Shown here: piece after piece, positions 4,321 to 23,638 of the stretch
Numbering within the stretch: position 1 is the first letter of the stretch
Layout of the letters: the number at the start of each line of letters is the position of its first letter
Assembly (NCBI GenBank): GCA_947628665.1
Contig: CANRAU010000009.1
Coordinates: 19,743-83,742, forward strand
Origin: an uncultured Clostridia bacterium
GTDB taxonomy: Bacteria > Bacillota > Clostridia > Oscillospirales > Acutalibacteraceae
Length of the DNA: 64,000 nucleotides
Reading direction: 5' to 3'
Position numbers and translations under genes: made by a program
The notes under the pieces: model-generated
What the model was told of the DNA's origin: nothing
The model's database searches: none
What the model saw: the letters and a program-made list of their open reading frames with translations, nothing else

Positions 4321-4349
4321 AGCATACCATTTTCATGCGCTCTTGTCAA
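4321..4349 (-). promoter_or_regulatory. Sigma-A promoter for the riboswitch-ATPase unit
   Basis: On the minus strand TTGACA (4344-4349) and TATGCT (4321-4326) are separated by 17 bp. The -35 box overlaps the 3' end of the upstream gene (stop at 4346). The predicted start of transcription, near 4314, gives a leader of about 200 nt that contains the riboswitch. Confidence 0.8.
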
Positions 4350-5527
4350 GCACCTGTTTCGGCGATCCAGATATAATTCTCCACGCCCGCGCTCTCGAGC
4401 TTCTCCAGGTCGGCGCGGTCATAAATGATCGGTACAAAGCTCTTGGTGCTGTAGTTCTCTTCGAGCTTATCCCGAAGCGCCGAGCAGGCTAAGGGCAGAA
4501 GTGTTTCGGCAGACATATCCGCGCTGTACTTCGTCTGTCCGATCAGCGTCCCATCGGGCAGCGCGCTTCGGGCAAAATCCACCGCGCAAAACGCGGCCGC
4601 GCTGTCAAAAATCCCGCCGTCGTACAAAAGAGCGTCGCCGTTTAAGGCCGCGTACAGGGGCATCGCCACCGAAACAGGTACGTCCCCCGCCGCCGAGACC
4701 GCAAGCTCAATAAAATCGTGCAGAACCGCGTTGTGGCTAAAGAGACTTTCCGCTTCGCCCGGAAAAGCCGCGCGCTCGACATAGCGGCCGTTCGGGAACG
4801 AAACGCCGTCCAAGAGCACCGCGTCCGCACCGAATTCCACCGCTTTCTGCACGATGCCCAACAGATAATTCCGCGCCGTTTCGGAGTACGGATTCAGCCA
4901 CGGGTCGCCGTCGTTGCGGGCGCTGTCGTCCAGCCAAACGGTCACGCCGTCGGCCTCGGTCACCGCCGCGCCGGGCAGTCCGGCCGCCGCGAGCGGGTCG
5001 CGAAAGCAGTAGATCCGCACAAAGATACGGTAGCCCGCTTCCTTTAAACGCGCCACGGTCTGCGCCGCGTCGGCAACGGCGTTGCTCTCTGCGCCGATGT
5101 CTGCGGGCGTTCCGCCCACCTGCGTACACAAATACCCGTCGGCGTCCTTAAAATCCAGCAGCACGGCATTTGCACCGACCTCCGAAAGCGTGTTTTGGAA
5201 CAGATCGAATGCGATGCCGCCCGCAAGCTCATCCGCCGACATATACACCGTTTTCAGCTGCCCGCCCAAGTCATCCGCCGTATGCGCCGCGCCGTCGTCA
5301 AGCGGACGCCCGGACAATTTCAGCGCGACCGCCCCGACGACAAAAGCCAACACAAAAACCACCAGCAGCCCAATCGCATACACGATGGTGTTGGCACGTT
5401 CCTTTTTGCGGCGGGTGCGGCTTTCGCCGATCACATAGGTCGTACCCGTGCGCCGCCCGGGATAGTTTTTGGCAAAGGGATAATAGCTTTTTTTGCGTGG
5501 TTTTATATCTTTGTCATTTCTGAACAT
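4346..5527 (-). CDS. Membrane-anchored putative glycoside hydrolase (DUF4015-like TIM barrel)
   Basis: A 393-residue protein with a basic cytoplasmic N-terminus, a single membrane helix around residues 48-70 (YAIGLLVVFVLAFVVGAVAL) and a large extracellular domain. The barrel-like motifs GANAVLLDFKDADGYL, FVRIYCFRDPLAA, WLNPYSETARNYLLGI and GADAVLLDGVSFPNGRY match the DUF4015 (putative glycosyl hydrolase) family; the substrate is unknown. The start has AAAGGAAACGGCT upstream. It lies about 100 bp downstream of the Rnf-like genes on the same strand and could be transcribed with them. A role in wall or surface polysaccharide handling is inferred from location only. Confidence 0.75.
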   Translation of the reverse strand: MFRNDKDIKPRKKSYYPFAKNYPGRRTGTTYVIGESRTRRKKERANTIVYAIGLLVVFVLAFVVGAVALKLSGRPLDDGAAHTADDLGGQLKTVYMSADELAGGIAFDLFQNTLSEVGANAVLLDFKDADGYLCTQVGGTPADIGAESNAVADAAQTVARLKEAGYRIFVRIYCFRDPLAAAGLPGAAVTEADGVTVWLDDSARNDGDPWLNPYSETARNYLLGIVQKAVEFGADAVLLDGVSFPNGRYVERAAFPGEAESLFSHNAVLHDFIELAVSAAGDVPVSVAMPLYAALNGDALLYDGGIFDSAAAFCAVDFARSALPDGTLIGQTKYSADMSAETLLPLACSALRDKLEENYSTKSFVPIIYDRADLEKLESAGVENYIWIAETGA

Positions 5528-5625: not shown

Positions 5626-6219
5626 TCAAACGCCGAACCCCCTGCCGGTAATGCCCGTAAAGGTGAGCGCCAAGATCGCCGTATACAGGAACACGGCGGG
5701 CGTGCCGCGAAAACAGGCGGGGATGCTTTCGTTCTTTTGGATGGCGCGCAGACCGAAGCTGATGAGCAGCACGGCGAGCAGGAAGGCAAGCCCCGCGCCG
5801 ATGCCCGCGCCCAATGCCTCGAACGGTCCGAAAGCCGCGCGGTAATTGATGAACGGTACGGCCAGCACCAGCGTATTGAACGCCGCAATGCCGAGCCTGC
5901 GCACGGTGCGCGGCTGCGCGTGTACCACGAACAGCACGATGACCAGTGCAAGCAGATACACGATCACCAGCACGCCCGTAAAAATCAGCGCGTGCCAGAA
6001 AATATTTAAGCTGCGCACGGCGGCGATGCGGTCGAGCAGGACGCAGCAAAGCGACGCCACCGTGGAAAACAGCATGATAAACAAGCTCAGCGGCAAAAGC
6101 TGCTTTGGCTTCGCCGCCATACGAATGGCTTCATCCGCGCCGTAGCCGCCCGAAAAAATCAGATTCTGAAACAGGCAGGCGAAAAGCGCCGCCGAAAGCA
6201 TACTGCCTAAAATACTCAT
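5626..6219 (-). CDS. RnfA/NqrE-like membrane protein lacking Fe-S cysteines
   Basis: A 197-residue, six-helix protein of RnfA length. The C-terminal third aligns by eye to RnfA (IPACFRGTPAVFLYTAIL, LTFTGITG). In RnfA/NqrE two cysteines, in an N-terminal CP motif and in NCAVLGV, ligate an intramembrane [2Fe-2S] cluster. Here the first region reads FQNLIFSGGYGADEAI and the second AAFNTLVLAVPF, so both Cys positions appear lost. The start codon overlaps the upstream rnfE-like stop by 4 bp, indicating translational coupling. The family call is fairly safe. A conventional electron-transfer role is doubtful because rnfB, rnfC and rnfG are not adjacent. Confidence 0.72.
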   Translation of the reverse strand: MSILGSMLSAALFACLFQNLIFSGGYGADEAIRMAAKPKQLLPLSLFIMLFSTVASLCCVLLDRIAAVRSLNIFWHALIFTGVLVIVYLLALVIVLFVVHAQPRTVRRLGIAAFNTLVLAVPFINYRAAFGPFEALGAGIGAGLAFLLAVLLISFGLRAIQKNESIPACFRGTPAVFLYTAILALTFTGITGRGFGV

Positions 6220-7292
6220 ACGCCGCTCTCCTCCTTTGCCTGTCCTTGTTCGGCGTTCTTTGCCGTCTCCGGCTTCTCAACGTCTGCTCGCTCCCCGCCC
6301 GCGTCCTTTGCCGACGAAGGCGTTTCTTCGTCCGACGCCTCGGCGGGCGGCGCAGCTTCGGATTTTTCCTGCGCCAGCTTGTACGCGTCAAGCTCCGTAA
6401 GCATTTCGTCGAAGTCCAGCAAATAGCTCTCCCGCTTTTCGCGGTTCATATTTTTGGTCTGCTGCGTCGGAGACTGCGTTTCCTCTGCAAGGTGCGGCTC
6501 GATCTTGGCAGCCTTTTGCCGCGTGTGCTTTTTTGGACGTTCGGGACGCGCTCCCGGTTTCTTCGATCTTTCCGACGCCTGTGTCCCCTCGTCATACGGG
6601 TCAAATTCCGCATCGAGCAGGGTTTTGAGACGGCCGATGTGCGATTGCGAAACTTCCTCCAAACTGAATGCCGCTTCGGGGTGTGCATTCGGATAGCGCC
6701 TCGCGATCACGGCTTTCAGCGCCGCCGCAAAAAAGCCGAGCAGCAAAAGTCCGCCGAAGGGCAGCAAAAATCCGGGAAGCTGCACCGGCAAATGCAGCGA
6801 AACCGAATATACCGTACCACTGCCGAGGATCTCCCGCACAAGACCGACCGCCAGCACCACGACCGCATAGCCCGCAGCGGCAGAAAGCGCGTCGATGCAC
6901 GTATTTTTCGCGGAATTTTTGACCGCAAAACGCTCACAGTGCAGCGCGATCAGCGAATTCACCGCCAGCAACGGCAAAAAAATGCCCGCGCTGTTGGTCT
7001 CGTTGGGGGTGAAGTGTTCAAAGAACAAAAAGAACGGAATGTTGATGAGCATGCCGAAAAGCGCGTAGATCGGCACGCGGAAATAGCTTTTTAAGCGTTT
7101 CAGCGCGAGGCACGCAAACATCTCGATGAGCAGTAGCTCCGCGCCGGAGACCGCCGCAAGCATAATGGCGGATTTGAGCGACACCGCCATGGCCGCCGCA
7201 GGTGCGATCCCGATGGCTTCAAACAAGGCGGGATTTTGGATCACCGCACTGCTGCGCACGCGTGCGCGCAGTTCACCGTGTTCTCTATGCAT
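6216..7292 (-). CDS. RnfE/NqrD-like membrane protein with long charged C-terminal tail
   Basis: A 358-residue protein. The first 215 residues resemble RnfE: NPALFEAIGIAPAAAM near residue 20, GIFLPLLAVNSLIALHCERFAVKN near 95-115, and LVREILGSGTV. The canonical LGLCP and VNCIILG cysteines, which bind the [2Fe-2S] cluster, are replaced by IGIAP and VNSLIAL. An unusual hydrophilic tail of about 140 residues follows (K/R/E/P-rich, with a patch ending YLLDFDEMLTELDAYKL), absent from normal RnfE of about 200 residues. The reading frame overlaps rnfD by 8 bp and rnfA by 4 bp. The tail is probably cytosolic and could recruit a partner (inference). Confidence 0.72.
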   Translation of the reverse strand: MHREHGELRARVRSSAVIQNPALFEAIGIAPAAAMAVSLKSAIMLAAVSGAELLLIEMFACLALKRLKSYFRVPIYALFGMLINIPFFLFFEHFTPNETNSAGIFLPLLAVNSLIALHCERFAVKNSAKNTCIDALSAAAGYAVVVLAVGLVREILGSGTVYSVSLHLPVQLPGFLLPFGGLLLLGFFAAALKAVIARRYPNAHPEAAFSLEEVSQSHIGRLKTLLDAEFDPYDEGTQASERSKKPGARPERPKKHTRQKAAKIEPHLAEETQSPTQQTKNMNREKRESYLLDFDEMLTELDAYKLAQEKSEAAPPAEASDEETPSSAKDAGGERADVEKPETAKNAEQGQAKEESGV

Positions 7293-8361
7293 TTGTGCCG
7301 CCCCCTTCCCGCGCTTCGACCGTCTCCGCGCTCGCCGCCTGTTTTTCGCGGCGAACCGCCGCCCGTTTACGGCGTTCGCGCGCCGTCAGCGGCAGTTTAT
7401 CAAACACGGCGGACAGAACGTTTACAAGCAGCACGGCAAACACCGCGCCCTCTTCAAATTCGCCCAAATGGCGAAACAGCATACAGAAAAGCCCCGCCGT
7501 CACGCCGTAAAGGAGTCTCCCGTAAAAGTGTTTCGGCAAAAGCGCCTCTTCGGGCAGCAGAAACAGCGCGGTGAAAAACAGCATCCCGCCCGAAAGCTCC
7601 ATAAAGACCGATTGGAAACGCCCCGTTAAAATGCGCGGGAACAAAAAGGCGATGACCGCCGTCGTGGCAAGGCACGCCCCCGCCGCCGTAAACTGCCCGG
7701 GACGGCGAATCGCAAGGTACAGCAGCGCGCCGAGCAGCGCGATCATACAGCCCGTACCCATAGGCCCCGGGAAGCTGCCCAAAAGCACATCGATATAATT
7801 TGCGGCGGAGCTGCCCATAGAGGTGCTTTCCGACAGCATCTTCGCCAGAGAAGTTCCCGACGAGAAAGCGGACGCGCCGTAAGCGGCGACCGCTTCGCCC
7901 GCGTCGGGAAGCGCGGGATAGGCAAACATATACTGCGGCAGGCAGACCGTGACAAAGGCGAGCCCTGCCGCCACAGGGGAAAACAGGAGACTGCGCGTGC
8001 TGCCGAAGGGGACTTTGACAACCAAAATCGCAAAGGAAACGGCGAGAGGCCCTAACCACAGGGGCGAGGACGCGGGCAGACACAGCGCCGTAACAACGCC
8101 CGTGACCGCAGCAGACAAGTCGCGCAGCGTCGGCACAGTGCCGACGAGCTTGTCCCCGACGTACTCGCAGAGCATCGCCGTCAGCACCGTCAGCAAAAGG
8201 ATGCGCAGCACCCCGCCGCCGTAATAATACCATGCCATAACGACGGGAGCGGCGAGCATCACGAGGTTGTCCAACATATATTTTCGAGTGGTTTGCACGT
8301 CGGCTTTCAGCTGTGGTGTATACAAACGCCCGTCTTCGGGCGTATGGGCGTCTTGACGCAA
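7285..8361 (-). CDS. RnfD/NqrB-like membrane protein
   Basis: About 358 residues with multiple helices. KADVQTTRKYMLDNLVML matches the RnfD N-terminal region, and FGSTRSLLFSPVAAGLAF and FPGPMGTGCMIALLGALLYL match later RnfD segments. In the flavin-attachment region AFSSGTSLAKML aligns with the SGATPLA-type motif and seems to retain the Thr that accepts FMN in RnfD. I chose a TTG start at 8361 because GAGGTGG lies 5 bp upstream; the ORF-track TTG start at 8415 has no such site. It is first in a D-E-A cluster and diverges from the mecA-like gene across about 96 bp. Confidence 0.72.
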   Translation of the reverse strand: MRQDAHTPEDGRLYTPQLKADVQTTRKYMLDNLVMLAAPVVMAWYYYGGGVLRILLLTVLTAMLCEYVGDKLVGTVPTLRDLSAAVTGVVTALCLPASSPLWLGPLAVSFAILVVKVPFGSTRSLLFSPVAAGLAFVTVCLPQYMFAYPALPDAGEAVAAYGASAFSSGTSLAKMLSESTSMGSSAANYIDVLLGSFPGPMGTGCMIALLGALLYLAIRRPGQFTAAGACLATTAVIAFLFPRILTGRFQSVFMELSGGMLFFTALFLLPEEALLPKHFYGRLLYGVTAGLFCMLFRHLGEFEEGAVFAVLLVNVLSAVFDKLPLTARERRKRAAVRREKQAASAETVEAREGGGTNA

Positions 8362-8457: not shown

Positions 8458-9003
8458 ATGGAGTTACATAAGAGATCCGAAACCCGTTTGTTTGTTCAGC
8501 TCAGCCGGGCGGATCTGTCCGGCTATCGGCTTTCTTTCGACGAGCTCAGCGCCGAAGGGGAACGCACGGCGGCCGTCATTCAGGATATTTTGGCGCGCGC
8601 CGAGGAAATGCTCGACTGGGCGATCCCCGCGCGCAGCCGCGTGTGCATTGACGTGCTGCCCGAGGAAAACGGCGGCTGTATTTTTCTGTTCACGGTGCTG
8701 CGTCCGCCGAAAAGGCGATTCCGCGTCAAAACGCAGTCCGATATGCTGCTGTGCGTCTGCGCGGACACCGAGAGCTTTTTGCAGCTGCTCGGATACTGCC
8801 GCACAAGCGAGCTTTGCCCGCATGCCTCGTTTTTCCGACTGGATTCGCGCTATGCCGCGCTGTTTTGCTTTGTCGACCCGGTAAGCGCGCAAGCCATGCG
8901 GTTCTCCCTTTCGGAATTTGGGAAAATCTCCTCCGCCGACCGCTTCACGCAGCTGTTTTTGGAGGAACACGCAGAGCCCATCACCCTGCGGCAAGCGCCT
9001 TAA
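8458..9003 (+). CDS. MecA-like adaptor protein
   Basis: A 181-residue cytoplasmic protein starting MELHKRSETRLFVQLS; the ATG at 8458 follows GGGGGC, while the longer ORF-track start lacks a site. It has the MecA layout: an N-terminal half with LSGYRLSFDELSAE and ILARAEEMLDW, an acidic link (IDVLPEENGGCIFLFTVL), and a C-terminal domain with SFLQLLGYC, RYAALFCFVD and LSEFGKISSADRF, followed by LEEHAEPI. In Firmicutes MecA-type proteins deliver substrates to ClpCP. The assignment is by pattern only and is moderately sure. It converges with rpe and overlaps it by 23 bp. Confidence 0.6.
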   Translation: MELHKRSETRLFVQLSRADLSGYRLSFDELSAEGERTAAVIQDILARAEEMLDWAIPARSRVCIDVLPEENGGCIFLFTVLRPPKRRFRVKTQSDMLLCVCADTESFLQLLGYCRTSELCPHASFFRLDSRYAALFCFVDPVSAQAMRFSLSEFGKISSADRFTQLFLEEHAEPITLRQAP

Positions 9004-9640
9004 AGCGTGCAATCGCCGCGCCCAAATCGGCGTTGGCAAACAGCGCGCTGCCCGAAACGAACACATTTGCGCCCGCTTTGGCCGCAATCGGGATCGTTTG
9101 TGCCGTAATGCCGCCGTCGACCTGAATGTCCAGATCCGTTATGCCGCGCCGCGCACATTCGTCGCGCAGCTTTTCGATCTTGGGCATCATATCGGCCATA
9201 AAGCTCTGCCCGCCGAAACCCGGTTCTACGGTCATGACCAGCACCATGGCGAGCTTGTCTAAATACGGATACACCGTTTCAATCGGCGTGGCGGGTTTTA
9301 CGGCAAGCCCCGCCTGCCGACCGCTTGCCAGGATCGCGTCGACCGTTTCGCCCGTGTCGCTTTCGCTTTCGACATGAAAGGTGATCCTGTCCGCGCCCGT
9401 CTCCACAAAATCGGGCAAATGCGAAAGCGGCTCGGAGATCATCAAATGCACGTCAAAGGGGAGCTTCGTCACGCCGCGTATGCAGCGGATCACGGGCGCG
9501 CCCAGTGTGATATTCGGCACGAAATGCCCGTCCATAACGTCAATATGCACCATATCCGCGCCCGCCTCGGTCAGGCGGCGCAGTTCGCGCTCCAAATTGC
9601 CGTAATCGGCGGAGAGGATAGACGGAGAGATCAGCAACAT
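8981..9640 (-). CDS. rpe: Ribulose-phosphate 3-epimerase
   Basis: A 219-residue TIM-barrel enzyme interconverting ribulose 5-phosphate and xylulose 5-phosphate (pentose phosphate pathway, cytosol). Visible motifs are ISPSILSADYGNL, the metal/catalytic HIDVMDGHFVPNIT, FDVHLMI, VMTVEPGFGGQSFM, IQVDGGI and the phosphate-binding end NVFVSGSALF. The ATG at 9640 follows AAAGGGGG; the longer frame in the ORF track is spurious upstream extension. The gene lies 40 bp downstream of an exported protein of unknown function. Its 3' end overlaps the convergent mecA-like gene by 23 bp, so the two transcripts are antisense at their ends. Confidence 0.96.
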   Translation of the reverse strand: MLLISPSILSADYGNLERELRRLTEAGADMVHIDVMDGHFVPNITLGAPVIRCIRGVTKLPFDVHLMISEPLSHLPDFVETGADRITFHVESESDTGETVDAILASGRQAGLAVKPATPIETVYPYLDKLAMVLVMTVEPGFGGQSFMADMMPKIEKLRDECARRGITDLDIQVDGGITAQTIPIAAKAGANVFVSGSALFANADLGAAIARFKALAAG

Positions 9641-14410: not shown

Positions 14411-14902
14411 TTAAGCCGCTTCATAGGTAACCGTAAAGGTGACCGTGCCTGTGTATGCTGCGATCGGTGCATCCGCCCAATTTGCGATCGATACGCTGGG
14501 CTGCGTTTCGGGAGCCTGCTCGTTGCAGTCCGGCCCGAAGGTCGATTCTGCGCCGTTTTGGAGGGCAAAGGTCAACGTCTTTTCGGTCAGATTCGACGTC
14601 ATTTTCCCCCCGTTGTTTTCCTCGGCCTTAACCTTCAGCTGTGCGCCGAGCGCAAGCTGCGTGGTTACTTTATAGCCAAGCTCATACGAATCGGTATCGC
14701 CCCAGGCGATGGTCACTTCTGCAGGGTAGCTCACGGTATAGGTCGAGGGGTCTTTCCCCTCTTTATCGGTCGTTTTGGTCGTCACATTTGTCTGACCGGT
14801 CGGACCCGTATCCTTCGTGATCGTTTGATCTGCCGCGAAAGCGGGTACACAGACCGCAAACAGCATAACGAGCGCAACAATAAGAGAAATTGCTTTTTTC
14901 AT
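14411..14902 (-). CDS. Small secreted PADxxIxW-module protein, paralog 7
   Basis: About 163 residues from the ATG at 14902 (AGGAG 8 bp upstream; the ORF-track Met two codons earlier is too close to the site). The signal peptide MKKAISLIVALVMLFAVC ends PAFA. The mature domain of about 140 residues has YTVSYPAEVTIAW, YKVTTQLALGAQLKV and a C-terminal strand pair APIAAYTGTVTFTVTY. It is predicted all-beta, with no anchor, no catalytic motif and one Cys in the mature chain. Seven tandem paralogs and the C-terminus of the 1823-residue protein share this architecture. It is closest to paralogs 4-6. Function unknown; a structural subunit of a surface layer or fibre is my inference. Confidence 0.85.
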   Translation of the reverse strand: MKKAISLIVALVMLFAVCVPAFAADQTITKDTGPTGQTNVTTKTTDKEGKDPSTYTVSYPAEVTIAWGDTDSYELGYKVTTQLALGAQLKVKAEENNGGKMTSNLTEKTLTFALQNGAESTFGPDCNEQAPETQPSVSIANWADAPIAAYTGTVTFTVTYEAA

Positions 14903-14928
14903 AATCATTACTCCTATTCAAAACGCGT

Positions 14929-15423
14929 TTAATCAGTTGCGGGAATGTATGTAACCGTAAAGGTCATTGTGCCGACATATTCGGCGATCGGAACGCCCGC
15001 GAAGCTCGCGATTTGCACGGTGGGCTTCGTCACGGGGGAAGCCTCGTCGTTTACTTCGTGGAAGGTTGCGGCTTCGCCGTTTTGGAGGGCAAAGGTCAGG
15101 GTCTTATCCGTACCGACCGCCTTCATTGCGCCCGCATTGTCCGCCGCAACGGCAACCGTCAGCTGATCGCCCAGCAACAGCTGGGAGGTCACGGTATAGT
15201 TGACTTCCTTCTCAGCGGTGTCGTTCCAGTCGATCTGCACGTCCGCCGGAATTTTGATCGTATACGTATACGAGTCCGTCGCCGCGTCGATATTCGTCTT
15301 TACTTCCACTTTGCCTTCCTGCGGCACAGTATCCTTGGAAATCTCTTGCTCTACCGCAAAAGCGGGTACACAAACCGCAAACAGCATGGCGAAAGCAACG
15401 ACGAGAGAGATAACTTTTTTCAT
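14929..15423 (-). CDS. Small secreted PADxxIxW-module protein, paralog 6
   Basis: 164 residues. The signal peptide MKKVISLVVAFAMLFAVC ends PAFA, and CAGGAGCGA precedes the ATG. The module shows YTIKIPADVQIDW, VNYTVTSQLLLGDQLTV, LTFALQNGEAATFHEV (nearly identical to LTFALQNGAESTFGPD of paralog 7) and VPIAEYVGTMTFTVTYIP. No cysteine in the mature protein and no membrane anchor. The 26-bp gap to the next gene and the lack of internal terminators indicate co-transcription. Sequence divergence from neighbours is large outside the signature, so these are old duplicates rather than recent amplification. Confidence 0.85.
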   Translation of the reverse strand: MKKVISLVVAFAMLFAVCVPAFAVEQEISKDTVPQEGKVEVKTNIDAATDSYTYTIKIPADVQIDWNDTAEKEVNYTVTSQLLLGDQLTVAVAADNAGAMKAVGTDKTLTFALQNGEAATFHEVNDEASPVTKPTVQIASFAGVPIAEYVGTMTFTVTYIPATD

Positions 15424-15459
15424 AATGATCTCGCTCCTGTTAAAGCCTTATCAGACAGC

Positions 15460-15966
15460 TTATACGGGAACGTAGGTTACCGTGTAGGTCAGGGATACCT
15501 TATACACGGCAATCGGAACGCCGTCAAAGCTGTTGACTTGGATGGTGGGGGACTGCGGCGCGGTTGCGTTATCGTTGACCTCGCCGAATGTCGCTGCGTC
15601 GCCGCCCGTAAGCGTGTAAGACAGGAAGTTCACTTCGTCGCCGTCGGGTTTCATTTTGTTCTCGGCGTCGCCGTCGATCTTCACTTTCAGGGATTCGCCC
15701 TTTTGAAGCTGGGAGGTCACATGATAGGCTACATCCTGTGCCTTGGTGTTGCCCCAGGCGATCTCTACATCCGCGGGAATGGTCACGGTGTAGGAACGCA
15801 CTTCCTCGCCGGCTTCATTGGTTGTTTTGGTAAAAACATCTACTTTTTGGGGATCTTTCGGAGTCGGCTGTCCATCTGCGCCGCTTGTAATATCGGCCGC
15901 AAAAGCAGGAACGCAGACCGCAAACAGCATAATGACTGCCAGCAAAACAGAAATTGCTTTTTTCAT
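15460..15966 (-). CDS. Small secreted PADxxIxW-module protein, paralog 5
   Basis: 168 residues with signal peptide MKKAISVLLAVIMLFAVC...AFA after GAGGAG. The mature part begins with a Gly/Pro-rich segment (SGADGQPTPKDPQKVDVF) shared with paralog 4. It continues YTVTIPADVEIAW, VAYHVTSQLQKGESLKV, LSYTLTGGDAATFGEV and VPIAVYKVSLTYTVTYVP. In the last motif the usual TGTVTF is replaced by KVSLTY. Beta-rich, no anchor, no cysteine after the signal peptide. Same operon context as the other paralogs; function unknown. Confidence 0.85.
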   Translation of the reverse strand: MKKAISVLLAVIMLFAVCVPAFAADITSGADGQPTPKDPQKVDVFTKTTNEAGEEVRSYTVTIPADVEIAWGNTKAQDVAYHVTSQLQKGESLKVKIDGDAENKMKPDGDEVNFLSYTLTGGDAATFGEVNDNATAPQSPTIQVNSFDGVPIAVYKVSLTYTVTYVPV

Positions 15967-16008
15967 AATGGTCTACTCCTCACAAAAACTGTATAAAACT
16001 TACTTTCC

Positions 16009-16512
16009 TTACGCCGCAGGAGCCGTGTAAGTTACCGTAAAGGTTACAGATCCGGTGTACTTGGCGACTGCCTGATCGAAAGCATTCACCCTGACCTTGG
16101 GCTGTGCCGTGGGGGTCGTACCCTTGTCGTTAAGGCCTGTGAATTCCTGTGTGTCATTGTCGCTCAAGGTGAAATACAGATAGGTCACGCCGTCGTCCGA
16201 TTCCAGTTTCATTTTACCGCTGTCGTCCGCCTCCACGGCAACGGACAGCTTCGCGCCATATAACAAAACCGATTCGATGCTATACGCCAAATCGTGATCT
16301 GTCTTGTCGTCCCAGGAGATGCCGAGATCGGCGGGAATGGTCACGGTGTAGGTGCTGGTCACATCTGTAATGTCGGTATAAACATCGACCTGATACGGTC
16401 CTTCCGGAGTTGGCTGTCCGGTCGCGTCGTTTTTCACTTCAACCGCAAAAGCGGGTACGCAGACGGCAAACAGCATGCATACTGCCAATAAGACAGATAA
16501 GAACTTTTTCAT
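16009..16512 (-). CDS. Small secreted PADxxIxW-module protein, paralog 4
   Basis: 167 residues, signal peptide MKKFLSVLLAVCMLFAVC...AFA, start marked by GGAAAGGAG. The N-terminal mature segment NDATGQPTPEGPYQVDVYTD matches paralog 5. The module is YTVTIPADLGISW, LAYSIESVLLYGAKLSV, YLYFTLSDNDTQEFTG and AVAKYTGSVTFTVTYTAPAA. No anchor or enzyme motif. Its high similarity to paralog 5 marks a pair formed by a later duplication than the split from paralogs 1-3 (inference from visible identity). Confidence 0.85.
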   Translation of the reverse strand: MKKFLSVLLAVCMLFAVCVPAFAVEVKNDATGQPTPEGPYQVDVYTDITDVTSTYTVTIPADLGISWDDKTDHDLAYSIESVLLYGAKLSVAVEADDSGKMKLESDDGVTYLYFTLSDNDTQEFTGLNDKGTTPTAQPKVRVNAFDQAVAKYTGSVTFTVTYTAPAA

Positions 16513-16581
16513 TGCGCAAACTCCTTTCCGTACAAATTTAAAAGGGTTGCTTTTTCAGCATTCTGCCGAAAGAGGGGATAA

Positions 16582-17061
16582 TTATGCGTCAACAACGGCT
16601 ACGGTGAAGGTCAGGTGCGCTTCATACCCTGCAACAGGCGCGGTCTTCCAGTTTTCCTCGGTAATGCCGATGTTGAGCGTGTTGGTCTGGGTGGTGGTAA
16701 CAGTATCGACCGTCACATCCGTGTCGCCGCCGAGGGTGTAATCCAGCGTGTAATCCAAATATTTCATTTGCTCGTAGTCTTTATGCTTCGTAACCTTGAC
16801 GCTCAGCTGTTTGCCGGCTGCCAAATGGGTGGTGGAGGTGTACTGGATGTCGGTGTTCTTAGTGTTCCAACTGATGTGAGTCTCTGCGGGATATCTCACT
16901 TCGAACGTACCGCCCGCCATAGTTCCGGTGTCGACCTTTACCATCGCGTCGCCGGTATTCGCACCCTTATCTGTGAGCGAATTCTCTACAACAGCAAACG
17001 CGGGGATAGAAATTGCGCAGATCATAAGCACTGCAAGTGCAACAGAAAGAACTTTTTTCAT
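16582..17061 (-). CDS. Small secreted PADxxIxW-module protein, paralog 3
   Basis: 159 residues with signal peptide MKKVLSVALAVLMICAISIPAFA and an AAAGGAG site. The signature is VRYPAETHISW. Next come IQYTSTTHLAAGKQLSVKV, LDYTLGGDTDVTVDTVTTTQ, then the WxxxPVAGY variant ITEENWKTAPVAGYEAHLTF. The Trp-containing C-terminal motif is shared with paralogs 1, 2 and 7 and the giant protein. Predicted beta-sandwich, no anchor. A 69-bp gap separates it from paralog 4. Confidence 0.85.
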   Translation of the reverse strand: MKKVLSVALAVLMICAISIPAFAVVENSLTDKGANTGDAMVKVDTGTMAGGTFEVRYPAETHISWNTKNTDIQYTSTTHLAAGKQLSVKVTKHKDYEQMKYLDYTLDYTLGGDTDVTVDTVTTTQTNTLNIGITEENWKTAPVAGYEAHLTFTVAVVDA

Positions 17062-17150
17062 GATAAAACTCCTTTTTTTATATTAGATTGGGATTGCTTT
17101 GCGGAATGCTTGTAGGATTTGCTGATGGGGCTTGTAAATGAGGTAGTGGC

Positions 17151-17636
17151 TTACGCGCCCAAAACGTCGACGGTGAAGGTCAGGATGTCTTCATACTGAC
17201 CGACAACCGCTTGGTTCCAGTCGTCCGCCGTGATGTCAACGGAAATGGTCTTGTCGGCCGCAGGATAAATCACAGGGCCTGCGCTCGTGAACGCGGTATC
17301 GCCCGAAAGCGCATAGGGCAGGGCGAAGCTGTCCGAAACGGATGCCTGATAGGTCATTTCGTTGTCGCCCGCGACGTCGATTTGCAGGCTCTTACCGTAG
17401 CCAAGGTGGGATTCTACCGAATAGGTCAGTTCGGTGTTCTTGGCGCCCCAGGTGATCTCGGTATCCGCAGGGATGCTGACGGTGAACTTTTCGGCGGATT
17501 CGCCGTGTTCGTCGGTCATGGTCGTCTTAACGATGGTCGTACCCGAGCCGGGGGCAGTCAAGTCCGCGAATGCGGGGATCATCATAGCGAACGCCATAAC
17601 GAGCGCCAAGACAAGTGCGAGAGTCTTTTTCATCAT
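17151..17636 (-). CDS. Small secreted PADxxIxW-module protein, paralog 2
   Basis: 161 residues. The signal peptide MKKTLALVLALVMAFAMM ends PAFA. Two adjacent ATGs follow AGGAG and either could serve. The module shows FTVSIPADTEITW, LTYSVESHLGYGKSLQIDV, FALPYALSGDTAFTS, and a C-terminal ITADDWNQAVVGQYEDILTF. That last motif belongs to a general pattern (ITxxxWxxAxxGxYxDTLTF) that I recall from many exported beta-sandwich proteins of Clostridia. No cysteine, no anchor. An 89-bp gap follows before paralog 3. Confidence 0.85.
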   Translation of the reverse strand: MMKKTLALVLALVMAFAMMIPAFADLTAPGSGTTIVKTTMTDEHGESAEKFTVSIPADTEITWGAKNTELTYSVESHLGYGKSLQIDVAGDNEMTYQASVSDSFALPYALSGDTAFTSAGPVIYPAADKTISVDITADDWNQAVVGQYEDILTFTVDVLGA

Positions 17637-17669
17637 GTATACTCCTTTTCAAAAAATTTGTTTGCACCG

Positions 17670-18122
17670 TTATTTCACATATTCAGCGGTAAACGTCAGC
17701 GTATCGGTATGCTCGCCCGCGGCCGCCTTTTTCCACTGGTCTGCACCGATATTCACGGTAAGCGGGTAGCTCTTGCCGGCCTCGCCGGGGGCGAAGGTGA
17801 TACCGTCCGCACCTGCGAGCGTGTACGCGATCGTCTTTTGCGCGTCTGCCGTGTTGACGAGCTTGTAAGCGTTCTGCGACTCTACGCGCACGTCTACCTT
17901 CGCGGCGGGTTCGATCCAGAGGACAGTCGCCGCCACTTCGCCGATGGCGGTCGAAGACGCTTCCCAATCAATGGTGGTGTCGGCGGGGTAGGTTAGCTGA
18001 TAGGAAGGGCCGTTCCCGTCCGGGCCGTTTTCGGTATAAATCCTGGTGTCATCGGCAAAAGCGGGGATCGCACAAACCGCCAACATCAACAGCGCAAGGA
18101 CGAGCGAAAGGGCTTTTTTCAT
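17670..18122 (-). CDS. Small secreted PADxxIxW-module protein, paralog 1
   Basis: 150 residues from the ATG at 18122, which has AGGAG 9 bp upstream; the ORF-track TTG three codons earlier is less likely. The signal peptide is MKKALSLVLALLMLAVCAIPAFA. The module has YQLTYPADTTIDW, ATVLWIEPAAKVDVRV, IAYTLAGADGITFAPGE, and the C-terminal NIGADQWKKAAAGEHTDTLT. It is the shortest copy and directly follows the giant protein, 44 bp downstream of its stop. Function unknown; all copies together look like structural subunits. Confidence 0.85.
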   Translation of the reverse strand: MKKALSLVLALLMLAVCAIPAFADDTRIYTENGPDGNGPSYQLTYPADTTIDWEASSTAIGEVAATVLWIEPAAKVDVRVESQNAYKLVNTADAQKTIAYTLAGADGITFAPGEAGKSYPLTVNIGADQWKKAAAGEHTDTLTFTAEYVK

Positions 18123-18166
18123 GGTTCTCAACTCCTTTGCAGTAGATTTACTTTATTTGCTAAAGC

Positions 18167-21100
18167 TTATTGTGTACTGCCATCCGAATAGGTGACGGTA
18201 TAGGTAAGCTTCGTTTGGTATTTGTCGGGTACCTTGCCGGACCAATCGGTAACAGTTAGGGTGGGCTTGGGATCGGGCAACGTCTGCTCAGTCATTTGCC
18301 CCTCGAACCTCTTTTGGACGTCAAATTCCGCCGTCGTAAACGCGATCTTGGCGTTGGGGTCGTTGCTGCTGATTAGTTTGCCGGGCTCTGTGCCGGAGTC
18401 TTTGACCGAGACTTCGATATGTCCCTTAGACAAGGTGGTCAAGACCTTATAGGAGACGTCTTGTGCTTTGTCGTCGCCCCACTTAATGGGTATCTCGGCC
18501 GGAATCGACACGGTGTAGTTATCGCCGGGCGCGAAGAGAATCTTGATTTTCTTCGTCAACGGCTGCTGATCGCCGCCAAGAAGCGGCGTGCCATCGCCAT
18601 GGTAGAACTGCACGGTCAATGTATCCGACAGCGCAACCGGCACCTTGGGGTCGGCCGCCAAGCTCACGTTGAAGGTGAAGTTTAAGGGTGCGCCTTGTGT
18701 CGCCTTATTGTTCGCAACCTCGCCGATTTTCGTCTCTGTCTTTAAAGCCGAGGCGTCGTAGCTCGCATCCGCCGGTGTATTGGAGTCAGCCTTATTCGGA
18801 ACGGTCGATTCGCTGGAGGGACGCGTGATTGCTACCGTATAGGCAGCCTCAGGATTCGAGCCGCCCTGCATCGTGACATCCGACATCAGTTTGCCGTTTT
18901 CGGAGGTGACGGTTATGTAGCTGAGCGATTCGGTGTCCGTCTGCGAGGGCAGGAACACGGAATACTGCACGTTGTAGGTCGCCGAGCCTTGGAGTTCATC
19001 CGGCGTCAACGTGACGGTCGCCTCCTCAAGGTCTTTGTCGCTGTTCAGCGCGACCTGCTCGGCAGGGAACAGCGGATAAATACCGTCTGGATAAGTGTCC
19101 TCACCCTTTACCCTTGCATCGCCGTCTAATTTAACCTGGTCGGCTTCTTCGTGCCAAAGGTTATACAAATCCAAAATGCAGTAGTAAGCGGGAATGAGAG
19201 AATGGTACATTTCGTGCTGATCGTACAGCGTCTTCAGCTCAATGGTACTTTCGTTAAACAGCTTTTTGTTTTGGATGGCGTCCAGCGTTTTCGCGTAATA
19301 GTCCTCATACTTCGCTTTGAGATGGAGAACGCCGCCATCCAATTTTACGCCGGTGCTGTTCCAAGTCGTCGTATCATCATCCTCCGGCGTGTTTGCCGCC
19401 CCCGCACCGCACTGGTAAGAATTGACGTTGCAGCGAAGCCTCTGGAGCGTAACGATAATGCCATCGTTGTTTTCCTGACCGAGGTACAGTTCGCCGGGCA
19501 ACATTTTCATATTTCTAAGAATGTACTTGGCGTAATAACCGAGGTCTGTGTACGCTTGCCACGCTTTGGAAAGTGTGCTGCCGCTCGAGTCGTTCAAATC
19601 CGTCGCAAGGGAGAAGAAGAATTTACCGACTGCCGAATCATCAGGAGATGCGTTTCCCGGGTCGTGGTACAGTTCCTCAATCTGTGCGTACGCGGCATTT
19701 GCGGCAGTTAACTCGCCCGCCATATACACCAGACGCTTGGCGTTGGCGTAAGCGTTTTCGAGTTCTGCTTTTGAACCCGCCAACTGCTCTTTCTCGGTTG
19801 GGGACAAGCGTGCATAGCTCTTTTCATACAGGTCGATGATTGCTTGCGCAGCCGCTTCGTCCGTCAAACCGTACTTGGCATAGTCGATTGTCCCATCTTT
19901 TATGTTATACAGGCCGGACATCTCGTTCTCATGACCGTTTCCTGTATACGACTCTTTTGTTTTGGAATCCCAGCCTGCAATCGCAGCTTGAATCGCGCTC
20001 ACGTCCTGCTCGGCAGCGGGTCTACTGTGGTTTGTCGCCCAATCCTGATATGTCAGCAGCGTTTCATGCGCCTTTTTGACGGACTCATGCGTCGTTTGGA
20101 AAGCAGTCAAGCTATTGTAAGCCTGCAACGCCTCGTTGACAGCCGCCAGGAAAGCATCATAATTCTCCCCGTAAGAGTAGGGGTCGATTGCATTGACCTT
20201 TTCTTCGAACTTCAACGCGCTTGAGGACTTGGAATCCGTCAACGCTTCAAAGAACGGGTCTGTATTCGGCCGAGCCGATTTATAGGCATTTTCGTCGTAG
20301 GAGAAGCCGACATTGTCGATGGTGAACGAGCGTCCGTCCATCTGCTTCGCGGCCGCCGCGCCGTCGGTATTCTTCACGTCCAAAGGCGCAACGCCAATCT
20401 GAACGCGGTAGATGCCGTTCAAAGCCTCTTTGTCGGTGCTCATCGAATAGTTATAGTCTCTGCTTCCCACCGCGCCGCGCAAGCCCGACTTGAAATACTC
20501 CAGCGGAATCATGATATACCCGCGGTAATTGTCAAGGGACAGCTCCTCTACGCCGTCGTTGCCGCTCGAGCTGGAGGGCAGCGTATAAATTTTGTTGTCG
20601 ACGTTGCACTGTACCCATTCGCCGGTATTGGGGGACAGCAGCCAAAAGCGTCTGTTGGCTGCGTTGGAGCCGAAGTCGAGCGGGAAATCTTCAAATTCGG
20701 AAGGCGCGTCCGCAGCGTCGTTGACATTGTTCGGGCAATAGGCATGGAGCACAACGGACAAACGGAAATTGGAAAGCTGCGAGAAGTCGGCATAGAACAC
20801 CAGGCAGATGGGCGGGTCGGCGTTGTTATTTGCAATGGTAATGTCGCTGCTTGCGAAGTCGCCCAAGGAATCCAGTCCCGTGGTCTGCTTACGAAGCTCA
20901 GCGGGGTCATCGTTCTCCGCCCCCTTACGGGTAAAGGAAACCGCCGTATAACAGCCGTTGTTTTCAGAATAATACTGGCTGTCGATGGTCGTCGTCAAGC
21001 CGTGCGTACCCATAAAGCCGTTTTCGTCTACGGTCGCCCAAGCGGGGTCCCAATAGATGTCGCCGTTGCTCTTCAGGTTGTTGCCCAACGTATCGACAAC

Positions 21101-23638
21101 GTTGCTATCGCTTGTAGCGTTATCACTTGTATGCCCATTGAAGGTATGCATGGTCGAGCCGGTATAGGTGACCAAACTCTTTTTGAAGCGGTAGTCGGCC
21201 GTGGAGAGATCCGCTACATCGTCACGGTAGTAGTTACCGCCGAGACCCACATTATTCTGTTGCGAACCCGGGTTGCCCGCGTTTGTATCGTTTTCCAGCT
21301 GCCAAGCGCGCGTGCCCACAGTCTCCTGCTCAAAGTCGTTGAACATGATATAGGGCGTACTCGCCAAGGAATCGCCGACGGGAACGGAGTTTTCGCGCAG
21401 CTGGAACGCCATAAGCTGGACATAATCTAACAGCTTTTGCTCGTTCGCACGCCCGAATACGGTCAGCTGATCCAAGGAAAGATGCCGATAAATCTGCCAA
21501 ATCTTCGTAATGGTGTCCTTCGTAGTCTGCGGGATGGTCAGAAGATTTTCATCGGGTCCGGGCAGCTGCTCCAAATCGACAATAAGCGGCTGCACGATGT
21601 CGAGACCGTTGTTGTCCTTGTGGTACGTTGACGGCTCCGCGTTTTTACAGGCTTCCCTCGCATCGGTGAATTTCTTCCAAGCGGCACTCATATTGAGTTC
21701 CGCGGCCTTGGCCGCAAGTTGGTCATCTGTCAGAAACTCATTTCCTATCTCCTTGTTGGCCTCATACCCCTTCTGATAGGCTTGTATCATTTCCTCGATA
21801 TACGCCACTTCGTGGAAATCGCCCCAGTCGGGGTTGCTGTCAAACAATTCGTCGCAAGCGGTGAAAATGGCGCGCGGAATTGCCGTCTTTTGGTCATAGT
21901 AATCCGCCATGGGGTCGCCAATGTTGCCGGTGCCATCGTCGGGGTACGATCCCCCGTCGGTACGGTAAAAGAGGACGTTGTCGATAAAGAAAGACTTATC
22001 GACGGAGTCCGCGCTCGCGCTTTTATAGCTGAAGCCGCATGCCATCATGTCCTCAATGGCCTTGTAGGCGGTTTCACGGTTCGGAATATTGCCGTCCGCA
22101 TCCATCGTCGCGCGTTTGGGGTTATCGTTTGTGACATTCGTAGGGTCGAGATCCACAGCAAGCATTTTGCCGAATTCTTCAGAGTAAGTTTTTCGGGCTA
22201 GATCACTGCTTCCATGACCAAACTTAGCACACAAACCGAAGTGCTGCAGCAAGAGCGCATCCTTGATAGATGTGCCGGCAGGATCGATGGTTACTTCTTT
22301 GCCGAGACTGAAGTGCTTGTCGAACATTTCCTTCATTCTCGCACTCATTGACTCAGTATTCCACCCACTACCCCAATGCTCATTTAATTTAAAATCGTCA
22401 GTATAAGACTGGCTCCAATCATCGTTTTTCGCTGTGACTTTGGAATCCTCGGTCAGGCAGAAGAACTCAATCGGGATACGGATATAGCCGCGGTAATGCC
22501 CTAAATCAATCGTACCTTCCGGCATGCTCTGCTTGAGCCATGTGCCGTCGGCCTGCTGTATGTAGCAATATTCCGGCTTTGTCTCTTTCTCGGACGATTT
22601 TGTATAACCGAGCGTAGAGAAGACATCGCTGTCCGCCGTCAAATAGTCGGTTTCACCTCCACCGGGCGCATCCGCATGCACTTTGCCGCCATCCGAACGG
22701 TACAGGGTCTTTTCGTTGGACGTCATTTGGAAAGAAAGCCCTTGCAGCTCGACCTGCGAAAGGTCTACCCAGAACCAAACCTCTTCGGCGCCGCTATAGT
22801 CCCACATCTGCCGCGAGTAGCGCGTCATAAAGCCGGCGGGGTTTGCTTGCCGAATGGTGAAGCCGTAGCCGACGGTATCCTTGTTGTAATTCTCGCCCGC
22901 GCTCGCGCTCACGTTCTCCTTACCGGTTTGATCGGCCGCGCCGACAACATGCAAATCGCTCTCCGCGCCCTCCGTCAAAACATAGAAAGGCGCGGTAGAC
23001 CCCTCTAAACGATTCTGCTCCATATCCAACATCACGCGCGCGGCGGTTGCACCCGTCGTCAGCGGCGTAATCCCGTCGTAATTCGTGAACTTGGGTACGT
23101 TGGAAACGGCCGTATTCAGCGTTTTGGAGAACCAGCCTTCGCTGTCGTAAGCGGTGATGGAAACGCTGTAGGCGTGGTTGGGATCCAAGCCGTTTTCAAG
23201 CCCCTTAATCCCCTTGATTTCCTCAGCGGTAATGGTTGCCGTGCGGAGTTCTATTTGCTCCGCCGGCTCCGCTTCGGGCTCCTTTACGGTCTTGCGGAGA
23301 ATCACCTTGTCGGTGTGCGGCACTGCGTCTCCCACGTTGCCCATATCCACAAGCTCAAGCATATAGCCTTCAACCACTTTACCCGTCTCGTACTTATCGT
23401 TGTTGGTGGGTAAGGCTTTCGGGAAAGTGACGGAAATGTCACCCTCTCCCGTTTGATAAGCCGAATAGCTGCTCGCCGTCTGCGCCGCAGAATCATCCGT
23501 CGGAAACGTCGGCACGGGATCGTAGGTATGCTGCCATTCCGTCGCCGCAAGAGCCAACGGCAAAGACGTCACGAGCAAAACGACGCACAGCACGGCGGCC
23601 GTTACACCCTTTAGAAGCTTTTTGCTTTTCGTTTGCAT
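18167..23638 (-). CDS. Giant secreted protein (1823 aa) with two jelly-roll-like domains, helical stalk and C-terminal PADxxIxW module
   Basis: Begins MQTKSKKLLKG with a signal peptide ending ALAA; AAAGGAG precedes the start. Two long related regions each end in a YRGYI(R/M)IP(I/L)E(F/Y)F motif followed by a FFIDNVLFY or FTIDNVGFSY strand (near residues 400-560 and 1040-1125), a pattern common in jelly-roll carbohydrate-binding domains. A helical region follows with FIVAR-like segments (AFLAAVNEALQAYNSL, YARLSPTEKEQLAGSKAELE). The last 120 residues hold the same module as the seven small proteins: YTVSIPAEIPIKW, VSYKVLTTLSKGHIEVSV, TVTDWSGKVPDKYQTKLTY. There is no anchor helix or sorting signal. 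It may be the adhesive or capping component of a structure built from the small paralogs (inference). Confidence 0.8.
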   Translation of the reverse strand: MQTKSKKLLKGVTAAVLCVVLLVTSLPLALAATEWQHTYDPVPTFPTDDSAAQTASSYSAYQTGEGDISVTFPKALPTNNDKYETGKVVEGYMLELVDMGNVGDAVPHTDKVILRKTVKEPEAEPAEQIELRTATITAEEIKGIKGLENGLDPNHAYSVSITAYDSEGWFSKTLNTAVSNVPKFTNYDGITPLTTGATAARVMLDMEQNRLEGSTAPFYVLTEGAESDLHVVGAADQTGKENVSASAGENYNKDTVGYGFTIRQANPAGFMTRYSRQMWDYSGAEEVWFWVDLSQVELQGLSFQMTSNEKTLYRSDGGKVHADAPGGGETDYLTADSDVFSTLGYTKSSEKETKPEYCYIQQADGTWLKQSMPEGTIDLGHYRGYIRIPIEFFCLTEDSKVTAKNDDWSQSYTDDFKLNEHWGSGWNTESMSARMKEMFDKHFSLGKEVTIDPAGTSIKDALLLQHFGLCAKFGHGSSDLARKTYSEEFGKMLAVDLDPTNVTNDNPKRATMDADGNIPNRETAYKAIEDMMACGFSYKSASADSVDKSFFIDNVLFYRTDGGSYPDDGTGNIGDPMADYYDQKTAIPRAIFTACDELFDSNPDWGDFHEVAYIEEMIQAYQKGYEANKEIGNEFLTDDQLAAKAAELNMSAAWKKFTDAREACKNAEPSTYHKDNNGLDIVQPLIVDLEQLPGPDENLLTIPQTTKDTITKIWQIYRHLSLDQLTVFGRANEQKLLDYVQLMAFQLRENSVPVGDSLASTPYIMFNDFEQETVGTRAWQLENDTNAGNPGSQQNNVGLGGNYYRDDVADLSTADYRFKKSLVTYTGSTMHTFNGHTSDNATSDSNVVDTLGNNLKSNGDIYWDPAWATVDENGFMGTHGLTTTIDSQYYSENNGCYTAVSFTRKGAENDDPAELRKQTTGLDSLGDFASSDITIANNNADPPICLVFYADFSQLSNFRLSVVLHAYCPNNVNDAADAPSEFEDFPLDFGSNAANRRFWLLSPNTGEWVQCNVDNKIYTLPSSSSGNDGVEELSLDNYRGYIMIPLEYFKSGLRGAVGSRDYNYSMSTDKEALNGIYRVQIGVAPLDVKNTDGAAAAKQMDGRSFTIDNVGFSYDENAYKSARPNTDPFFEALTDSKSSSALKFEEKVNAIDPYSYGENYDAFLAAVNEALQAYNSLTAFQTTHESVKKAHETLLTYQDWATNHSRPAAEQDVSAIQAAIAGWDSKTKESYTGNGHENEMSGLYNIKDGTIDYAKYGLTDEAAAQAIIDLYEKSYARLSPTEKEQLAGSKAELENAYANAKRLVYMAGELTAANAAYAQIEELYHDPGNASPDDSAVGKFFFSLATDLNDSSGSTLSKAWQAYTDLGYYAKYILRNMKMLPGELYLGQENNDGIIVTLQRLRCNVNSYQCGAGAANTPEDDDTTTWNSTGVKLDGGVLHLKAKYEDYYAKTLDAIQNKKLFNESTIELKTLYDQHEMYHSLIPAYYCILDLYNLWHEEADQVKLDGDARVKGEDTYPDGIYPLFPAEQVALNSDKDLEEATVTLTPDELQGSATYNVQYSVFLPSQTDTESLSYITVTSENGKLMSDVTMQGGSNPEAAYTVAITRPSSESTVPNKADSNTPADASYDASALKTETKIGEVANNKATQGAPLNFTFNVSLAADPKVPVALSDTLTVQFYHGDGTPLLGGDQQPLTKKIKILFAPGDNYTVSIPAEIPIKWGDDKAQDVSYKVLTTLSKGHIEVSVKDSGTEPGKLISSNDPNAKIAFTTAEFDVQKRFEGQMTEQTLPDPKPTLTVTDWSGKVPDKYQTKLTYTVTYSDGSTQ

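Follow-up and report, generated by a model that had tools for sequence, protein, structure and literature searches.

The RnfD-, RnfE- and RnfA-like genes at positions 5626 to 8361 of the window (the whole 64,000-nucleotide stretch of DNA analysed here) are a paralogue of Rnf, called Rnf2 in what follows, which has been kept by selection and is not a broken Rnf operon. Our best explanation as a whole, to which we would give an even chance, is that Rnf2 is a redox-less Rnf paralogue that serves, together with partners, as a conduit for ions or solutes.

The Rnf2 locus

The trio and its neighbours in the window are:

7285..8361, reverse strand: D2, RnfD-like membrane protein, 358 aa (PF03116, E=9.2e-58)
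6216..7292, reverse strand: E2, RnfE-like membrane protein, 358 aa (PF02508, E=6.5e-25)
5626..6219, reverse strand: A2, RnfA-like membrane protein, 197 aa (PF02508, E=2.9e-12)
4346..5527, reverse strand: DUF4015 protein, N-terminal TM helix and glycosidase-like domain (PF13200, E=3e-21)
8461..9003, forward strand: MecA-like gene, divergent (PF05389, E=6.5e-07)
8981..9640, reverse strand: rpe (ribulose-phosphate 3-epimerase), marker of the conserved site, upstream of the trio in 110 loci

The three ORFs of the trio are adjacent, as the initial annotation had described, and they overlap, D2 and E2 by 8 bp and E2 and A2 by 4 bp (ATGA). D2 starts with a TTG codon preceded by the ribosome site GAGGTGG, and E2 is laid out as a membrane domain (residues 1–200) followed by a charged cytosolic tail. 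Pfam scores are above the gathering cut-offs for PF02508 (47.4 bits for A2 and 88.6 for E2, against 23.8) and PF03116 (196.4 bits for D2, against 27.7), while the curated NCBIfam cut-offs are far from reached (rnfA 39.9 against 229.3, rnfE 65.3 against 213.4 and rnfD 127 against 207 bits). The top matches among solved structures are RnfA for A2, RnfE for E2 and RnfD (7zc6/9eri) for D2, and AF2 models of moderate confidence match RnfA/NqrE in the case of A2 (pLDDT 70, TM 0.65–0.76) and RnfE/NqrD in that of E2 (pLDDT 77, TM 0.63–0.72). Judged at the level of sequence, the RnfA, RnfE and RnfD folds are shown to be retained in the trio.

None of rnfB, rnfC and rnfG is adjacent to the trio in the window. 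The DUF4015 gene is its usual downstream partner, scoring >60 bits in 68 loci from four families, and the MecA-like neighbour, conserved in 67 loci, probably lies outside the complex. Elsewhere in the window (14411–23638) there are seven tandem paralogous secreted proteins of ∼150–170 aa each, followed by a related protein of 1823 aa.

Distribution and origin of Rnf2

The initial annotation had proposed a survey of the spread of cysteine-less trios, and such trios, poor in or devoid of the cluster cysteines, proved to occupy a fixed site at rpe in four families of the order (f1, f5, f23 and f26). Counts given here run over 114 loci; seven genomes are in this set twice, leaving ∼107 distinct loci. 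Rnf2 is present in nearly all genomes of the window's genus, which takes in Candidatus Fimenecus (a name carried by same-genus contigs), and in many genera of the family. The 80 contigs returned by our scan are nearly all metagenome-assembled Clostridia, many of them from gut, rumen or faeces. Gene order is fixed: rpe, often the divergent mecA-like gene, in some loci an RnfC-like gene, then D2, E2 and A2, often followed by DUF4015. One genus has a CAP-domain (PF00188) gene between D2 and E2 (L039:5439-6188), and a similar gap is seen in L184.

In a concatenated D-E-A tree Rnf2 is monophyletic with a support of 100 and nested within canonical Rnf; it was born by an old duplication within the order. 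Comparison of same-genus loci gives a median dN/dS of 0.15 for A2, 0.23 for E2 and 0.19 for D2 (0.09 for rpe), estimates by which the Rnf2 locus is shown to be under purifying selection. A broken or misassembled operon was rejected on the strength of over 100 intact syntenic loci and the low dN/dS. A functionless duplicate in decay would account for the loss of genes (B, G and then C) and for the disappearance of all cofactor sites, but is hardly credible given intact ORFs in a conserved order and site across the four families, dN/dS values of 0.15–0.23 and new residues that are invariant, and at the level of the family it is already refuted.

Outside the order, 20 second-copy loci read from a class survey of 291 genomes were nearly all canonical Rnf or NQR-like with cysteines. 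A second type of cluster loss was seen in family f83, where two loci (L197:3085-7061 and L202:2998-7053) hold a C-D-G-E-A operon without rnfB. Here RnfA C25 is Tyr and C113 is Ser, and the RnfE cysteines are partly lost. This operon resembles Rnf2 in lacking RnfB and in its loss of cluster cysteines, but differs in keeping the RnfC NADH motif and the RnfD and RnfG flavin threonines, and in not being sited at rpe; it is tentatively placed as sister to Rnf2 at 83%, with both on long branches.

Canonical Rnf in the same genomes

The genome of the window (2.0 Mb, 99% complete) has on its contig 1 a complete canonical rnfCDGEAB operon that keeps all cysteines and is preceded by apbE, and the trio lies on a different contig. 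This second, intact operon, which the initial annotation had thought worth seeking, and the purifying selection on the trio both bear out its description of the trio as repurposed. Canonical Rnf accompanies Rnf2 in 64 of the 65 Rnf2 genomes checked, as would be expected if A2, E2 and D2 regulated or assembled the pump or joined it in mixed complexes. Canonical Rnf is, however, common across the order anyway, the two loci of the window genome are on different contigs, and one genome (G256; 99% complete, in 2 contigs) carries C2-D2-E2-A2 (L176:5820-9181) with neither a canonical Rnf nor any FMN_bind (RnfG) gene. Since G256 has Rnf2 only, Rnf2 can do without canonical Rnf, and a role as helper of canonical Rnf is improbable.

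Loss of the [2Fe-2S] cluster site

Ligand positions were aligned to the Rnf of A. woodii, of C. tetanomorphum and of the window genome itself. The four sites in the window are:

7203..7205, reverse strand: E2 Ala30, at the RnfE Cys25 position (Cys in 71/114 paralogues)
6954..6956, reverse strand: E2 Ser113, at the RnfE Cys108 position (Cys in 0/114 paralogues)
6130..6135, reverse strand: A2 Asp29-Glu30, at the RnfA Cys25-Pro26 position (Cys at the Asp29 site in 0/114 paralogues)
5872..5874, reverse strand: A2 Thr116, at the RnfA Cys113 position (Cys in 10/114 paralogues)

The replacement of the cluster cysteines read from the letters by the initial annotation is thus borne out by alignment, none of the four being kept in the window. 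Across Rnf2 the RnfA C25 position is taken by Ser, Thr, Asp, Asn or Ala. The window protein has lost all four ligands and most others retain one; as the four never occur together in the 114 loci, a four-cysteine cluster cannot form in any Rnf2 member. With RnfB and RnfG also missing, the trio cannot be a standard ferredoxin:NAD+ oxidoreductase, as had been argued at the outset.

Beside the lost C25, where canonical RnfA has Pro26, A2 has a Glu30 that is invariant in the window's clade (92/92), and we infer that this fixed carboxylate stands in for the charge of the cluster. Three new cysteines are near-invariant in the same clade (A2 C59, E2 C119 and D2 C140), occurring together in 72 loci. 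A mere shift of the ligands was rejected, the new cysteines numbering one per subunit; A2 C59 and E2 C119 are probably on opposite sides, going by the topology of RnfA and RnfE.

Flavin sites and the RnfC-like gene

To the initial annotation RnfD seemed to keep its FMN threonine, which is not supported: the Thr of D2 aligns with the flavin position only if read ungapped, and in an alignment uncertain by one residue that position is Ser in 96/113 paralogues. Of the flavinylation motif D....AT, neither Asp (-6) nor Ala (-1) is conserved. A flavin on D2 is unlikely on this evidence. None of the Rnf2 loci has an rnfB gene in its cluster, and the one found in the window genome sits in the canonical operon. 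The single FMN_bind gene of the window genome is likewise the rnfG of that operon, and redox supply by a free rnfG elsewhere was rejected, the canonical copy being the only one present in the genome.

The claim that the trio comes without B, C and G stands for the window's clade and, as regards B and G, for all Rnf2 loci, but fails for C among deep-branching relatives, where an RnfC-like gene occupies the same site in 12 loci. All eight [4Fe-4S] cysteines of both sites are kept in these twelve proteins and the FMN/NADH motif GGAGFPT is lost, so that redox activity may persist in one branch or another. The RnfC-bearing loci sit on several deep branches, so that the simplest order of events would have RnfC lost after the redox sites.

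A redox complex with other cofactors, be it a flavin attached to the Ser of D2, riboflavin in the same subunit or a metal site at the new cysteines, would make sense of these [4Fe-4S] sites, of the conserved Ser of D2, given that Ser is known to carry covalent FMN in some other protein families (PMC10979944), of the co-occurrence of the new cysteines, and of the one ApbE (L214:6225-7415) that G256 retains despite its absent RnfG. We nonetheless regard it as distinctly improbable: a standard cluster would need more than the one new cysteine that each subunit offers, unless it were shared between subunits, the flavin motif has not been conserved around the Ser, the locus has neither an RnfB electron donor nor RnfG, the window's clade is without RnfC, and the ApbE of G256 looks eroded by eye in a stretch that is usually conserved. 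Rnf2 is very probably a non-redox system.

Residues of the ion path

In A. woodii Rnf the residues of the Na+ path have been mutated, with RnfA T110G abolishing autotrophic growth (PMC11889175). By mapping on this complex, nearly all Rnf2 loci retain RnfE R67, most retain RnfE N107 and the gate residue L103, and 113 of 114 retain RnfA N112. RnfE E115 is present in 89/93 proteins of the window's clade and seldom in RnfC-bearing loci, and RnfA T110, T111, Q85, E88 and Y105 have been lost. The RnfA residues that face RnfB are also changed, K32 mostly and R154 almost always. That Rnf2 acts as an ion or solute conduit is, taken by itself, a reading we hold at slightly less than even chances; the retained path residues speak for it and the lost ones against it. 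Of the functions first guessed at for the trio, an ion channel or a scaffold is still plausible, and nothing specific was found in support of a flavin transporter.

The E2 tail and the DUF4015 partner

The E2 tail (window 6216–6690) is disordered with a conserved helix, the motif of which is:

6372..6428, reverse strand: E2 tail motif SYLLDFDEMLTELDAYKLA (in 31/89 long tails, against 0.22 expected after shuffling)

This motif is likely to be a docking helix within the disordered tail. Tails are long (median 149 aa) in f1 loci without RnfC and ∼20 aa in RnfC-bearing loci and in f26 and f23 loci, and within f1 the long tail is limited to loci without the RnfC-like gene. In the window's genus a conserved helix, for example YLDDFSDMLSELEDYK, lies at or close to the end of the tail.

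Many residues are retained in the DUF4015 partner, but its 'D.V.FP' motif, presumed catalytic in related glycosidase domains, is without a conserved Asp. In one locus of family f7 (L185:5500-6753) a DUF4015 gene lies directly 3' of a canonical rnfCDGEAB operon, a hint that the association with DUF4015 predates Rnf2.

These features would also suit a non-transporting scaffold or sensor, in which the trio only links the extracellular DUF4015 domain to a cytosolic partner of the E2 tail across the membrane: DUF4015 accompanies the trio in all four families, the loss of the Asp may mark it as a non-catalytic binding domain, and the tail bears a conserved helix. Such an arrangement is the less expected, however, where D-E-A persists without DUF4015, as it does at many Rnf2 loci, and a pure scaffold would have no need of the buried ion-path residues R67, N107 and RnfA N112 that have been kept. 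We consider it an unlikely alternative, if one to be taken seriously, to the conduit.

Comparison with known systems

With RnfABCDGE (A. woodii, C. tetanomorphum and the window genome's rnfCDGEAB) Rnf2 shares homologous D, E and A subunits in the same order and with the same folds, some of the Na+-path residues and, in deep-branching members, an RnfC homologue. It differs in lacking RnfB, RnfG and the four-Cys [2Fe-2S] site, in an eroded RnfD flavin motif, in the absence of the FMN/NADH motif from RnfC where RnfC is present, and in the E2 tail and DUF4015, which are new in Rnf2. Na+-NQR, which has its origin in an rnf duplication with loss of rnfB (PMC4014512), offers a parallel, since its NqrB, D and E have a membrane fold in common with Rnf2 and duplication and rnfB loss occurred likewise. 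In Na+-NQR, however, the cluster cysteines, the flavins and NqrC are still present and NqrF has been added, whereas Rnf2 has no complete membrane cofactor site and gained no reductase; of the Na+-NQR features looked at in Rnf2 loci, NqrC is unlinked and the cluster cysteines are not kept. In two-subunit Nqr/Rnf-like systems (PMC8238504, PMC10979944), as in Rnf2, the flavinylation site of the RnfD-like subunit is not conserved, but these systems combine that subunit with an RnfG-like flavoprotein and a domain that binds NAD and have no RnfA/E, making Rnf2 their reverse.

No description of a cysteine-free Rnf core was found in the open-access literature. The Acutalibacteraceae isolate BL-6 is reported to have 'only four genes' for Rnf subunits (PMC7764203), which may fit C2-D2-E2-A2.

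A putative mechanism

In the conduit that we favour, an old Rnf duplicate would have given up electron transfer, with A2 and E2 still pairing as a pseudo-symmetric RnfA/E dimer and D2 alongside. This core would go on providing a cation (Na+ or H+) or a small solute with an alternating-access route. A cytosolic partner would dock at the helix of the E2 tail and an outside ligand at DUF4015, suggesting that gating or drive may come from partners or the membrane gradient, instead of from redox chemistry. Somewhat more tentatively, we propose that Rnf2 represents an undescribed Rnf-derived class, widespread among Clostridia of gut and rumen, in which a carboxylate has taken the place of the cluster and a redox pump may have become an ion or solute transporter driven by partners or a gradient.

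Implications

Rnf and NQR are the textbook redox-driven pumps, and how they couple electrons to Na+ is still argued. Rnf2 is a natural lineage, kept by selection, that has dropped the redox parts and partly kept the ion path, and so shows which residues matter without electrons, making it a simple test system for coupling in Rnf and NQR. If our reading is true, it would be a natural experiment on the relative shares of 'ion path' and 'redox engine' in Rnf. For the organisms themselves, wherever Rnf2 genes annotated as 'electron transport complex subunit' are counted as Rnf the respiratory capacity of gut Clostridia is overstated, and the four Rnf genes of BL-6 may be such an overcount.
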